In this document: positions 44,164 to 57,202 of the stretch, in pieces
Numbering within the stretch: position 1 is the stretch's first letter
Layout: the number at the start of each line of letters is the position of its first letter
Assembly: GCF_005576615.1 (NCBI RefSeq)
Contig: NZ_CP040331.1
Span: forward strand, 186,001 to 250,000
Length of the DNA: 64,000 nt
Direction: 5' to 3'
Source of the DNA: Natrinema versiforme
Lineage (GTDB): Archaea; Halobacteriota; Halobacteria; Halobacteriales; Natrialbaceae
Translations under genes and position numbers: made by a program
The notes under the pieces: model-generated
Seen by the model: only the letters and a program-made list of their open reading frames with translations
Told to the model about the DNA's origin: nothing
Database searches by the model: none

Positions 44164-44862
44164 GGGTCGTGTTTAGTTTGTAGCATTCTGCCAGACAGCG
44201 AAGGCTTGGAGCCACGATTCTGCGGTTGATGGTTTAGCATGACTGAAACAGTTTGAGAATGAAGAGGTGCGTCGTTTTATCTCTCGAAAGATACGTTCGA
44301 CAGCGTTCCGATTTCCCTGTTTTTCGTATCGAAATCGGAGTCTGTGTCGGCGGAGTGCTGTCTGGAGATGCTGTGCGCCATCGACGAGAAACACAGCGTT
44401 TTCGACATCGTGTTTCTCGATTAGTTCTCGCAGAAAGCGTTCAGTCAATGCGGTCGTAGTCGTTGAAAATAGCCGTATATGAAGAATTCTGTTCGTTTCA
44501 GGATCGACTGCAGCATACAGCCAATACTGGTGATCATCGATTCGAATCACGGTTTCGTCGAGCGCAACGTGATTCGGATTCGCATCAGTTGTTGGCTGTA
44601 GATCGGCTTTCTGCACCCAATCGTGAACAGCCTTTCGCGAACGCTCGACACCGGACTTCTCGAGTTCCCGAACGGTATTCGAAAGCGATAATCCAGCAAG
44701 GTGGAGTCGAATACCAAGCTCCATCAGCCGGCGCGGTGTCCGTTCTCTCTCCACAAAACTCAAATCAATCCAGTCGCTACAACCATTGAGGCGGTCGATT
44801 TTTGCCATAGACCAGCATAAAATCGTGCCGCCTCACTTTTCACGCTTAACTAAACACAGCCC
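44164..44862 (-). mobile_element. IS6-type insertion element
   Basis: About 700 bp. The ends share GTGTTTAGTT near 44169-44178 and, inverted, AACTAAACAC near 44848-44857, the usual terminal sequence of haloarchaeal IS6 elements. A single transposase gene fills the interior. The 8-bp flanks differ, so no target duplication is visible. About 150 bp with no gene separates it from the IS5-type element on the left. Confidence 0.75.
44173..44808 (-). CDS. IS6-family transposase
   Basis: A 211-residue transposase, of full family length. The N-terminal part is LAGLSLSNTVRELEKSGVER followed by RKAVHDWVQKADLQ. The DDE residues lie in VALDETVIRIDDHQYWLYAA, AVFLVDGAQHLQTAL and GNRNAVERIFREIKRRT. It looks functional. 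The stop codon lies within the left end of the element. Confidence 0.93.
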   Translation of the reverse strand: MAKIDRLNGCSDWIDLSFVERERTPRRLMELGIRLHLAGLSLSNTVRELEKSGVERSRKAVHDWVQKADLQPTTDANPNHVALDETVIRIDDHQYWLYAAVDPETNRILHIRLFSTTTTALTERFLRELIEKHDVENAVFLVDGAQHLQTALRRHRLRFRYEKQGNRNAVERIFREIKRRTSSFSNCFSHAKPSTAESWLQAFAVWQNATN

Positions 44863-45568: not shown

Positions 45569-46024
45569 CTACTCGAGTTCGCCGAAGCCTTCCTCTCGCA
45601 TCAACTCCGCGACGCCCTCCGGATTTTCAAACGCATACAAGAGTGCGAATTCGCGTGCGTCTGATTTTGGAATGTTACCGTTTGTCTCGAGTTCGTCGGC
45701 GAGTTCACTTCGGAAGTCCGACTCCTGGTCGGTGACGACTTCCCGAAGATGAGCCTCAATTCGTTCGTCTCGCTCGTCGAGGACCTTGCTTCGACGGACG
45801 AAATACGGATACTTGTGCTTGTCCTGCTCTGACTCGTTGGTCGACGTCGACGATGTGCCAGGCTGATCGGGCTTCGACTCCGATCGAATTGACGACGATC
45901 CCGATCGGCCACGATCCGGTTGACTATCGTCGATCGGTCCACCTGGCGGTTTGGATTCGGTTGACTCCTCCTCCTCACTGCTATCACTGTCGCCGAAATC
46001 GAGATTCCCAGAGCCGTCTTTCAT
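45569..46024 (-). CDS. ParA-associated plasmid partition protein (putative ParB-like partner)
   Basis: A 151-residue protein with a disordered, Ser/Glu/Pro-rich N-terminus up to about residue 70. An ordered C-terminal part follows: KYPYFVRRSKVLDERDERIE, REVVTDQESDFRSELADELE and DAREFALLYAFENPEGVAEL. It overlaps the parA stop by 4 bp, so translation is coupled. Position and size match the small second gene of haloarchaeal par operons, which is thought to bind the centromere. No classic ParB motif is visible. Confidence 0.65.
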   Translation of the reverse strand: MKDGSGNLDFGDSDSSEEEESTESKPPGGPIDDSQPDRGRSGSSSIRSESKPDQPGTSSTSTNESEQDKHKYPYFVRRSKVLDERDERIEAHLREVVTDQESDFRSELADELETNGNIPKSDAREFALLYAFENPEGVAELMREEGFGELE

Positions 46025-47016
46025 TGGGACGCCACCTCGGTTTCAGTGGCATCTCGGAAATCAAAGCGTTCCTCTCCGCGGCCCTGAATATCGAGGACGA
46101 GTTCGGGATTAATTTGAGCGTCGAACGTATCCGTCGCGACGAACACGCCGAGCTCGTGTATGTCTCGGATCGTCTCGAGTTCACGGTCACGGACGCTTCG
46201 TTCACCGGGACTGCTGACCATTTCGCCGTCTTCTTCGAAGGTTTTCCAGCGCTCCTCGAGGACCTTGTACGCCGAACCCCGCGCTTCCCACATCGTATCC
46301 ATCAAACTCTCCCGATCGGGGATTGCAATCGGCGTCGCGAACTCGTCGGTGTTCTTGAACTGCTTGGAATACTGCTGGTGAGCGTTTGTCTGGCCGACAC
46401 CGGAGGGAACGACACAGGAGAGGCCGACCTCGATGTCCAGTTTGCGCTCCATGTTACCGACGAGTTCGTCGAGGCCGTCGAGACTCAGATTTCCTTTGCC
46501 GGCTGGTTTGACCGGAGCAACCAGCGTCCGCATGGCATAGATCGAGTTGTACAGCAGGTCCTCCGCTCGAGCGTTCGGGTCGATGAGGACGGCATCGTAA
46601 TCCTCATGCAGTTCCTGTTCGTTCCAGAGGAGATCATAGAGGAGTTCAAACCGCGGGAACTCCTCTTTGCTCATGTTCTTCATGCCCGTTTCGTAGGCGA
46701 TCTTCTGCTCGAGATTCGATGTGAAGTCACCGAGCATGTCGTGGCTTGGGATCACGTCGACGCCTTCGTCCGACGTTTCGATGAGGTCCTCAAAATCACC
46801 GTCCGGCATCTCGAGGATGTGCTTGACGAGGTTATCAGCCTCCGGATCACTGCGGTGTTCCCCGACATTGAACAGACTCGTCAGGTTGCCCTCCTGTGGG
46901 TCGAGATCGATCACGCAGACGTCCAGCCCCATCCGGACGAGACTGACTGCGAGATTCGCAGTTGTGGTGGTTTTGAAGGTGCCGCCCGATTCGGAGTACA
47001 CGACTACAGTTATCAT
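46021..47016 (-). CDS. ParA-family partition ATPase
   Basis: A 331-residue MinD/ParA-like ATPase. The P-loop reads YSESGGTFKTTTTANLAVSL; a Ser stands where the signature Lys of deviant Walker A motifs (KGGxGKT) lies and Phe replaces the second Gly. Walker B/switch regions are VCVIDLDPQEGNLTSLFNVG and YDAVLIDPNARAEDL. A basic C-terminal half includes RDRELETIRDIHELGV. It segregates plasmids, by family. The promoter lies inside the 13-bp repeat array upstream, so autoregulation is likely. It starts at 47016 with a TATA-like TTTATGTAA about 27 bp ahead (leaderless). Confidence 0.88.
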   Translation of the reverse strand: MITVVVYSESGGTFKTTTTANLAVSLVRMGLDVCVIDLDPQEGNLTSLFNVGEHRSDPEADNLVKHILEMPDGDFEDLIETSDEGVDVIPSHDMLGDFTSNLEQKIAYETGMKNMSKEEFPRFELLYDLLWNEQELHEDYDAVLIDPNARAEDLLYNSIYAMRTLVAPVKPAGKGNLSLDGLDELVGNMERKLDIEVGLSCVVPSGVGQTNAHQQYSKQFKNTDEFATPIAIPDRESLMDTMWEARGSAYKVLEERWKTFEEDGEMVSSPGERSVRDRELETIRDIHELGVFVATDTFDAQINPELVLDIQGRGEERFDFRDATETEVASQ

Positions 47017-47034: not shown

Positions 47035-47125
47035 TCTATTACATAAATCTGTTCCAGAGATACGTTACAGATGTCTGAAGTAGTATTCTGTAACAGATAT
47101 CTGTAACAGGTTTCTGTACATGCTG
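47035..47125. repeat. 13-bp iteron array, block 1 (seven units)
   Basis: Units start every 13 bp at 47035, 47048, 47061, 47074, 47087, 47100 and 47113. The best copies read TCTGTAACAGATA, and others keep TCTGT or GTTACA. The block covers the parA TATA region. It looks like a centromere (parS) and operator, or replication iterons. Confidence 0.8.
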
Positions 47126-47154
47126 CACTGCTGCGTTTTTGTCCCAATAACCAG

Positions 47155-47258
47155 TCTGTGAAAAGTATCTGTGACACATGTCTGTAACAGATATCTGTAA
47201 CACACATCTGTAACAGTTATCTATGACAGTATTCTGTTATAGATCACTGTTCCAGAGA
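47155..47258. repeat. 13-bp iteron array, block 2 (eight units)
   Basis: Units start every 13 bp at 47155, 47168, 47181, 47194, 47207, 47220, 47233 and 47246, consensus TCTGTAACA plus 4 variable bases. It is separated from block 1 by 29 bp. The unit at 47246 shares CTGTTCCAGAGA with the one at 47048. Confidence 0.82.
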
Positions 47259-47797: not shown

Positions 47798-48472
47798 ATG
47801 TACGAGGTGCTCGACGACACGGCGGCACGGGTCATCCTCGCCATCGAGAGTGGAGACTCCATCCGCCGTGTCGCACAACACCTTCACACGCCGTACGAGA
47901 CGGTGAGGCAGGCCGTGAACCGTCTCGAAGACGCAGGCTACGTCAGCTATGATGACGGCCTCTCCGTCGTCGACGAGCGCGTGAGGGACGCCGCACGCGA
48001 GCTCGTCGCTACCAGCGCCGGCGTCAGTCCGCCTTCGATTGAGGAGGCGTACGTCCTCCCACAGTTTAGTGACTGGCCGTTCGCCTTCACGCGGATCGAC
48101 GCCGTCTACGTATGGACCCAGGGCGGCTACCAAGTCGGTCGCGAGCCCAACGACTATCCGCTGTTCCTCGCTATTCGTGAGCAGGACGTCGACGCCTGGG
48201 AGGCATTTTTCGAGTCGTTCGATCTCCCGACCGCATTCGAGCGACAGCCCCGAGACGAGTTGGACGGACCGCTACAGATCGTCCTTGAGCCACGCCCGTC
48301 ACTCGACATCAATCATGTCGAAGGGTACCCAGTGATCCCGAGAGCTGAGACGATCGAGTATATGCGTGAGAACTACGCCCAATTCCAGTCGGCGCTGGCG
48401 ATGCTCGACCGGATGTATGAAGACCTTGACCTCGGCGTCACGTATCAAGAGAGTGAACGGGCACAGACGTAA
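47798..48472 (+). CDS. Winged-helix regulator (possible antitoxin-type)
   Basis: A 224-residue protein with an N-terminal HTH, ILAIESGDSIRRVAQHLHTP then YETVRQAVNRLEDAGYVSYD. The C-terminal domain of about 150 residues has FAFTRIDAVYVWTQGGYQVG, YPLFLAIREQDVDAWEAFFE and LDINHVEGYPVIPRAETIEY. The same architecture is common in haloarchaeal genomes and resembles AbiEi-like antitoxins, which have an HTH plus a large C-domain. No toxin gene is next to it here. The palindrome at the start codon suggests autoregulation. The function call is tentative. Confidence 0.6.
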   Translation: MYEVLDDTAARVILAIESGDSIRRVAQHLHTPYETVRQAVNRLEDAGYVSYDDGLSVVDERVRDAARELVATSAGVSPPSIEEAYVLPQFSDWPFAFTRIDAVYVWTQGGYQVGREPNDYPLFLAIREQDVDAWEAFFESFDLPTAFERQPRDELDGPLQIVLEPRPSLDINHVEGYPVIPRAETIEYMRENYAQFQSALAMLDRMYEDLDLGVTYQESERAQT

Positions 48473-56014: not shown

Positions 56015-57202
56015 TCAGGGAGCTGTCCCCATCAACTCCTCGAGTCCCGCTCTCACACTCGAAGTCGATTGATTCAACTCGTGTTTTTTGTACTTTCCAC
56101 CACCCTTCCCACGATTGATCTCGGTTGACTTGATAATCCCTAGTGTCTCGAGTTCAGCAAGATATTCACGAACTGCTCGGTCAGAAACAGGATTGTTCCC
56201 TTCCTGCTCACACAACATCTCGTAGGGTCCTCGGATTTCCCGCGTCCGGGCCGGCGTCTCGCCCTGCTCTTGGAGTACCGTCAGTGCCCATAGTACGAGC
56301 TGACCATGCAACGAGTAGTTGCTGATTCCTTCGATAATCTGGTCAGTCTGCAATCGTTCACGGGCTTCTTGGACGTAATCTTCTTTAACACGATCAGCCT
56401 TCCGTTCTCTAGCGATATCACCGCTCTCGAGCAGGAGGTCAAGCGCCTGCCGTGCGTCCCCAGAATCTTTCGCACCGTATGCTGCACACATTTCGATGAC
56501 ACCGTTTTCGAGGACGTCATCGTGGAAGGCCACGGATTCTCGTTGTCGCAGAACCTTGGTCAATTCCATCGCATTGTAGGCGCTGAATGAAACCTCTTTC
56601 TCGCAGAGACTAGAGCGAACCTTCGAACTGAGTTGGTTCCGGAAGCTCAAGTCATTCGAGATTCCAATCACTCCAAGTTTAGCATTCGAAATATCACCGT
56701 TTGATCGCGCTCGGGGCAGTTTATAGAGAAGACTATCGTCTTCGATATGGTCGACTTCGTCAAGGACAATGAGAATGGTGCCGCCTAGATCGTCGATTTC
56801 GTCAAAGAGGAACTGATAGACAGAGGCTTGTGGATAGCCCGTATTCGAAATCTGGTTTGCAGGATTGCGAAGTTCATTCACAAGAGCGACGGCCGTCTGA
56901 TAGCTAGAATTGAGTCCGTCACAATTAATTTCGACGGTATGAAGATCAAGATGGTCAACGTTGGCTGCACTCTCTTTGAGTTGATCTAGTAGAAATCGAG
57001 TGGCGGCCGTTTTCCCGACACCGCTCTTGCCATAGAGAAAAATATTAGAGGGTGTTTCACTTTCGATCACTGGCTGGAGCGCCGCGTGGTACTGTTCCAG
57101 TTCCTGATCACGGCCGACGAGTGTTTCTGGTGTCCACTCCTCGAGGAGAGCTTCACGCTCCTTGAAGATCCGGCCGGTTGGTTCGAAACTGAAATTGCTC
57201 AT
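56015..57202 (-). CDS. Orc1/Cdc6 replication initiator
   Basis: A 395-residue initiator ATPase. Opening EREALLEEWTPETLVGRDQE is typical. Walker A is FLYGKSGVGKTAATRFLLDQ, Walker B GGTILIVLDEVDHIED, and sensor-1 lies in LGVIGISNDLSFRNQLSSKV. The C-terminal winged helix starts near LVLWALTVLQEQGETPARTR and carries VREYLAELETLGIIKSTEIN. It binds origin boxes; five box-like repeats flank it, four behind the stop and one upstream, so it and they form a plasmid-type origin. Start at 57202 (MSNFSFEPTG) was chosen over 57223 by similarity. Confidence 0.93.
   Translation of the reverse strand: MSNFSFEPTGRIFKEREALLEEWTPETLVGRDQELEQYHAALQPVIESETPSNIFLYGKSGVGKTAATRFLLDQLKESAANVDHLDLHTVEINCDGLNSSYQTAVALVNELRNPANQISNTGYPQASVYQFLFDEIDDLGGTILIVLDEVDHIEDDSLLYKLPRARSNGDISNAKLGVIGISNDLSFRNQLSSKVRSSLCEKEVSFSAYNAMELTKVLRQRESVAFHDDVLENGVIEMCAAYGAKDSGDARQALDLLLESGDIARERKADRVKEDYVQEARERLQTDQIIEGISNYSLHGQLVLWALTVLQEQGETPARTREIRGPYEMLCEQEGNNPVSDRAVREYLAELETLGIIKSTEINRGKGGGKYKKHELNQSTSSVRAGLEELMGTAP

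Follow-up and report, generated by a model that had tools for sequence, protein, structure and literature searches.

We consider it likely that a tandem array of 13-bp units upstream of parA in Natrinema versiforme is bound by the partner protein, a small protein whose gene lies downstream of parA. The array would be read by the C-terminal domain of the partner and would serve as operator and as plasmid centromere, with an identity that depends on its word. It was found in a window of 64,000 nucleotides, that is, the whole stretch of DNA that was analysed, which lies within a 492-kb contig (G000:C3) of a 4.67-Mb genome in 5 contigs. The features on which the argument draws are the following (positions are those of the window).

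45569 to 45820, minus strand: C-terminal domain of the partner (last 83 aa), the proposed array-binding domain (AlphaFold2 pLDDT 81)
45569 to 46024, minus strand: partner (adaptor) gene, 151 aa; its start and the stop of parA share 4 bp (ATGA)
45989 to 46024, minus strand: conserved N-terminus of the partner, MKDGSGNLDFGD (family MKxGSGxxPF), the proposed ParA-contact tail, from the alignment and from the swap locus L191
46021 to 47016, minus strand: parA, 331 aa, ParA/MinD-type ATPase (PF13614, PF01656)
46966 to 46992, minus strand: P-loop of parA (SGGTFKT), signature lysine absent
47035 to 47125, unstranded: near block, seven 13-bp units (TCTGT-W-ACAGA-N2), overlapping the parA TATA box
47043 to 47047, minus strand: TATA-like TTTAT for parA, inside unit 1 and 31 bp ahead of the ATG, a leaderless spacing
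47126 to 47154, unstranded: 29-bp spacer between the blocks, CTGGTTATTGGGACAAAAACGCAGCAGTG on the parA strand
47155 to 47258, unstranded: far block, eight 13-bp units, with perfect TCTGTAACA at 47181, 47194 and 47207
47798 to 48472: gene of a helix-turn-helix protein, the next gene upstream of parA
56075 to 57169, minus strand: Orc1/Cdc6-family replication gene, ~9 kb distant and also on the 492-kb replicon

Direct reading of the sequence confirmed the original prediction of fifteen units on an exact 13-bp period, in blocks of seven and eight lying 29 bp apart. The units start at 47035, 47048, 47061, 47074, 47087, 47100 and 47113 in the near block, which ends at 47125, and at 47155, 47168, 47181, 47194, 47207, 47220, 47233 and 47246 in the far block, which ends at 47258. 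The two blocks are out of phase: with the 29-bp gap, the final unit of the near block and the opening unit of the far block start 42 bp apart. Counted unit by unit against TCTGTAACA, the mismatches are 2, 2, 3, 3, 0, 0 and 3 in the near block and 2, 1, 0, 0, 0, 2, 2 and 3 in the far block; five of the fifteen units carry the perfect word and the remaining ones depart from it at one to three positions. The spacing of the array is strict while its word is loose. Because positions 10 and 11 of the unit are also conserved (G in 11/15 and A in 9/15, respectively), the unit is better written as TCTGT-W-ACAGA-N2, an imperfect palindrome.

The lag-13 self-identity of the array is 0.569 (z = 9.7). Dinucleotide shuffles (n = 2,000) gave 0.266 ± 0.031 with a maximum of 0.379, and the second-best site at this lag within the 64-kb window reaches 0.346. 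Neither chance nor low complexity accounts for the array, given the shuffled sequences and the values elsewhere in the window. As for the spacer between the blocks, it is nearly identical in one relative (L010), and a AAAACGCA-like core is present at the same place in several others.

The near block had been expected to cover both the TATA region and the leaderless start of parA. The former holds, since TTTAT falls in unit 1, while the latter does not, as the block stops 18 bp upstream of the ATG and the start lies outside it. An operator function of the array is supported by this position. Repression requires nothing more than a block over the TATA box, and the array could accordingly be an operator only, the operon being autoregulated by the partner (or by ParA) and the centromere being located elsewhere on the plasmid. 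Such an arrangement is improbable, however: fifteen units in two blocks, reaching ~240 bp upstream, far exceed the needs of an operator, and the relatives repeatedly show long arrays in two blocks. Moreover, a search of the 4.67-Mb genome with the spaced word pair (two mismatches or fewer) gave seven matches, all of them in the array, and none with the reversed control; the genome thus shows no second copy of the array that could serve the same protein as a separate site.

The ParA of the window is a ParA-family ATPase without an N-terminal helix-turn-helix domain. The PF13614/PF01656 match begins at residue 3–4, and because the P-loop occupies residues 9–17, there is no room for a DNA-binding domain in front of it. 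This P-loop reads ESGGTFKTT and departs from the deviant Walker A motif with a signature lysine (KGGxxK[ST]); in the family alignment the consensus is EAGGVGKTT, with S or A at the signature position. A similar departure from the signature lysine is known for McdA, which has SGGQGKT (PMC9178275). The nearest ParA records, at 98% identity, come from Natrinema, the closest being that of a 113.8-kb Natrinema salinisoli plasmid (98.5% ParA identity).

The small adaptor gene is located directly downstream of parA, and most relatives show the same overlap between the two genes, or almost the same one. A transposase-like gene (DDE_Tnp_IS240) is found at 44173–44808, just past the partner gene. Alignment of the partners revealed conservation at the N-terminus and in the C-terminal domain, with a variable, acidic linker between them. 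No relative of the partner was found in sequence searches of Pfam, NCBIfam, PHROG or PDB, no match to a ParB/Spo0J CTPase domain was obtained from Pfam or NCBIfam, and a profile of 19 partners did not find SegB among all PDB chain sequences at the sequence level. AlphaFold2, run on 58 aligned C-terminal domains, predicted an extended segment followed by helices at 27–43, 52–65 and 67–76 (pLDDT 81), a predicted layout that is compatible with a ribbon-helix-helix (RHH) fold. Profile–profile comparison of the domain with haloarchaeal RHH proteins was negative (probability 0.2%), and neither this comparison nor the Pfam, PDB and PHROG searches detected a relation of the domain to a known DNA-binding family.

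The array is not peculiar to this plasmid. In dereplicated haloarchaeal parA loci with a downstream partner starting MKxGxGxxPF (class A, n = 131), the best period was clearly 13 bp in 127 when periods of 9–17 bp were tested. The four loci without a clear 13-bp array are L038, in which parA is truncated, L090, L102 of the present genome, and the swap locus L191 (see below). At lags 13, 26 and 39, the mean self-identity upstream of parA in 110 loci reaches 0.362, 0.336 and 0.323, respectively, vs 0.24–0.28 at the other lags between 6 and 40. In another set, made up of 77 loci in named genomes and partly overlapping the first, the same three lags gave 0.406, 0.375 and 0.348. In the relatives, parA is followed by a partner gene that shares the N-terminal motif and mostly overlaps the parA stop. 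Over half of the class A loci have a TATA-like box 30–33 bp before the ATG. The locus is found on plasmid-type replicons, near orc1. One of the relatives (L153) is present in Halobacterium salinarum. One locus with partner and array (L133; ParA 73% identical) is on a contig labelled Candidatus Nealsonbacteria, which is probably a mis-binned haloarchaeal plasmid contig.

The words of these arrays were compared with the proteins in 61 non-redundant loci. Word similarity is ~0.76 where the C-terminal domains of the partners are at least 60% identical, and below ~45% identity it is at the level of shuffled words (0.37). The word correlates with the identity of the partner C-terminal domains at r = 0.72 (partial 0.40 when ParA is controlled for) and with ParA at a partial 0.17 when the partner domain is controlled for. 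These values are taken as supportive only, because ParA and partner are co-inherited and much of the correlation is shared ancestry. Arrays residing in the same genome are unrelated to each other, with a similarity of 0.38 in 21 within-genome pairs vs 0.37 for shuffled words. Of 93 strong arrays, 66% have words that are more palindromic than expected by chance.

The genome of the window itself has two further par loci of this family with different words, L102 (G000:C3:372339-373097) and L064 (G000:C4:353516-354301). The former shares a contig with the window array; its own array is only weak, and another orc1/cdc6 gene is found ~4 kb away. Two other genomes, G019 and G024, each contain two identical par loci at different places (L080/L081 and L099/L100, respectively). 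These pairs are contrary to strict partition incompatibility, and a duplication or an assembly effect is possible.

The period of the array tracks the class of the partner: class A partners go with 13 bp, those of a sister class with 12 bp and those of class B with 6 bp. In the sister class, with partner starts of the KDDRY/KQDRY type, 12-bp arrays were observed in all four loci of one set and in 23 of the 24 loci L295–L318, two sets that overlap. The partners of class B have a different C-terminal domain, and their words, many of them CG-rich, are spaced by 6 bp.

A natural swap between the classes is provided by L191, a locus on a Haloarculaceae MAG contig. Its ParA is 71–74% identical to ParAs with 13-bp arrays, and all 30 of its close ParA relatives have class A partners. 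The partner in L191 joins an N-terminus of class A type (MKSGAGDDPF) to a class B C-terminal domain. The self-identity of the operator peaks at lags 6, 12, 18 and 24, and CG words of class B type occur 13 times in it vs 0–4 times in the 30 close ParA relatives. This evidence comes from a single locus on a metagenome-assembled contig, for which a chimera is unlikely because the partner C-terminus (in frame) and the operator, which are on opposite sides of parA, have both been exchanged.

Judged from these sequence comparisons, the C-terminal domain of the partner is most likely the part that reads the array, and binding of the array by the partner is strongly supported, if indirectly. The original prediction had regarded the array as a combined centromere and operator for the partition proteins. 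Binding by the partner is supported by the array type, which follows the partner C-terminal domain in L191 as well, and the operator role by the position over the TATA box; a centromere function, in the sense of plasmid stability, is what we infer.

It was also considered whether the array might be part of a replication origin, with the units being iterons bound by an initiator. An Orc1/Cdc6 gene is ~9 kb away, and iterons upstream of parAB in Deinococcus have both ori and parS functions (PMC7671480). An origin is nevertheless very unlikely, as no initiator gene adjoins the array and the type of array tracks the C-terminal domain of the ParA partner, the swap locus included. Binding by a different protein, either ParA itself or the helix-turn-helix protein, would agree with the conservation of ParA together with the array and with the place of the helix-turn-helix gene next upstream. 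The probability of this is similarly slight: ParA has no space for an N-terminal DNA-binding domain, a ParA more than 70% identical is paired with a different operator in L191, and the helix-turn-helix gene is present in 4 of 97 related loci as against 81 of 97 for the partner at the same threshold.

Type Ib partition systems, for instance ParF-ParG-parH of TP228 and delta-omega of pSM19035, have a ParA ATPase that lacks an N-terminal DNA-binding domain and a small adaptor encoded downstream or nearby. In these systems a repeat array upstream of the genes can act both as operator and as centromere. The haloarchaeal loci are similar in all three respects, namely the ParA without N-terminal DNA-binding domain, the small downstream adaptor and the repeat array upstream of parA, and by analogy the haloarchaeal system may work like the type Ib ones. 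It differs in being archaeal, in an adaptor that has no detectable sequence relation to the known ones, in a ParA without the signature lysine, and in a pitch that is invariant at 13 bp while the words differ completely. We have not filed it as a full classical type Ib member because of the missing signature lysine and because the adaptor can be given only a tentative fold class.

Among archaea, SegAB of Sulfolobales comprises a ParA-type ATPase and an overlapping downstream DNA-binding partner, with imperfect palindromic sites upstream of the operon and a 13-bp motif (PMC12284271). The archaeal ParA-type ATPase with its overlapping downstream partner and the imperfect palindromes upstream of the operon are common to both systems, but the SegB sites are scattered over the chromosome whereas haloarchaea have one dense tandem array per par locus. 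In ParMRC, parC of R1 and of C. perfringens pCW3 is a direct-repeat centromere upstream of the operon, and the repeat specificity of the adaptor decides plasmid coexistence (PMC9426499). There, however, the motor is the actin-like ParM, and the C. perfringens families differ in repeat spacing as well as in sequence, while the haloarchaeal spacing stays at 13 bp. Arrays of 18-bp iterons upstream of parAB, cisII and cisMP, act in maintenance in Deinococcus radiodurans and bind the cognate ParB (PMC7671480). This system is bacterial and has DnaA boxes and ParB binders, in contrast to the haloarchaeal partner, which has no Pfam or NCBIfam match.

The following mechanism is proposed. Each 13-bp palindromic unit would be occupied by the partner's C-terminal domain, most likely in dimeric form, and adjacent partner proteins held at the fixed 13-bp pitch would build up a regular filament on the DNA. 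Binding to the near block would cover the TATA box and repress the parA-partner operon. The flexible acidic linker and the conserved N-terminal tail (MKxGSGxxPF) would engage ParA, and through this contact the same array would become the plasmid centromere. The pitch would be set by the protein class, while the word would drift with the DNA-binding domain and give each plasmid its own segregation identity. It is probably through this array that the plasmids are distributed to daughter cells and distinguished from each other.

In the open-access literature we found no account of arrays with a 13-bp period in front of haloarchaeal parA genes. Literature matches to ‘PARS’ in Natrinema J7 were rejected as partition sites, as these are primer names. 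The segregation of several replicons at once is listed among the open questions for halophilic archaea (PMC5120986). The present analysis provides candidate centromeres and adaptors for ~130 haloarchaeal par loci, with a pairing of adaptor and array that can be predicted, together with a natural domain swap. A spacing that stays exact while the sequence is replaced is an unusual evolutionary pattern and ought to limit the ways in which the adaptor can assemble on DNA. We give an even chance to a more general proposition, that haloarchaeal plasmids use a centromere code of fixed pitch (13, 12 or 6 bp according to adaptor class) and free word, read by a modular adaptor whose N-terminal tail follows ParA and whose C-terminal domain follows the array. 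If this is true, new words would be new segregation identities, and many megaplasmids could therefore coexist in one cell.
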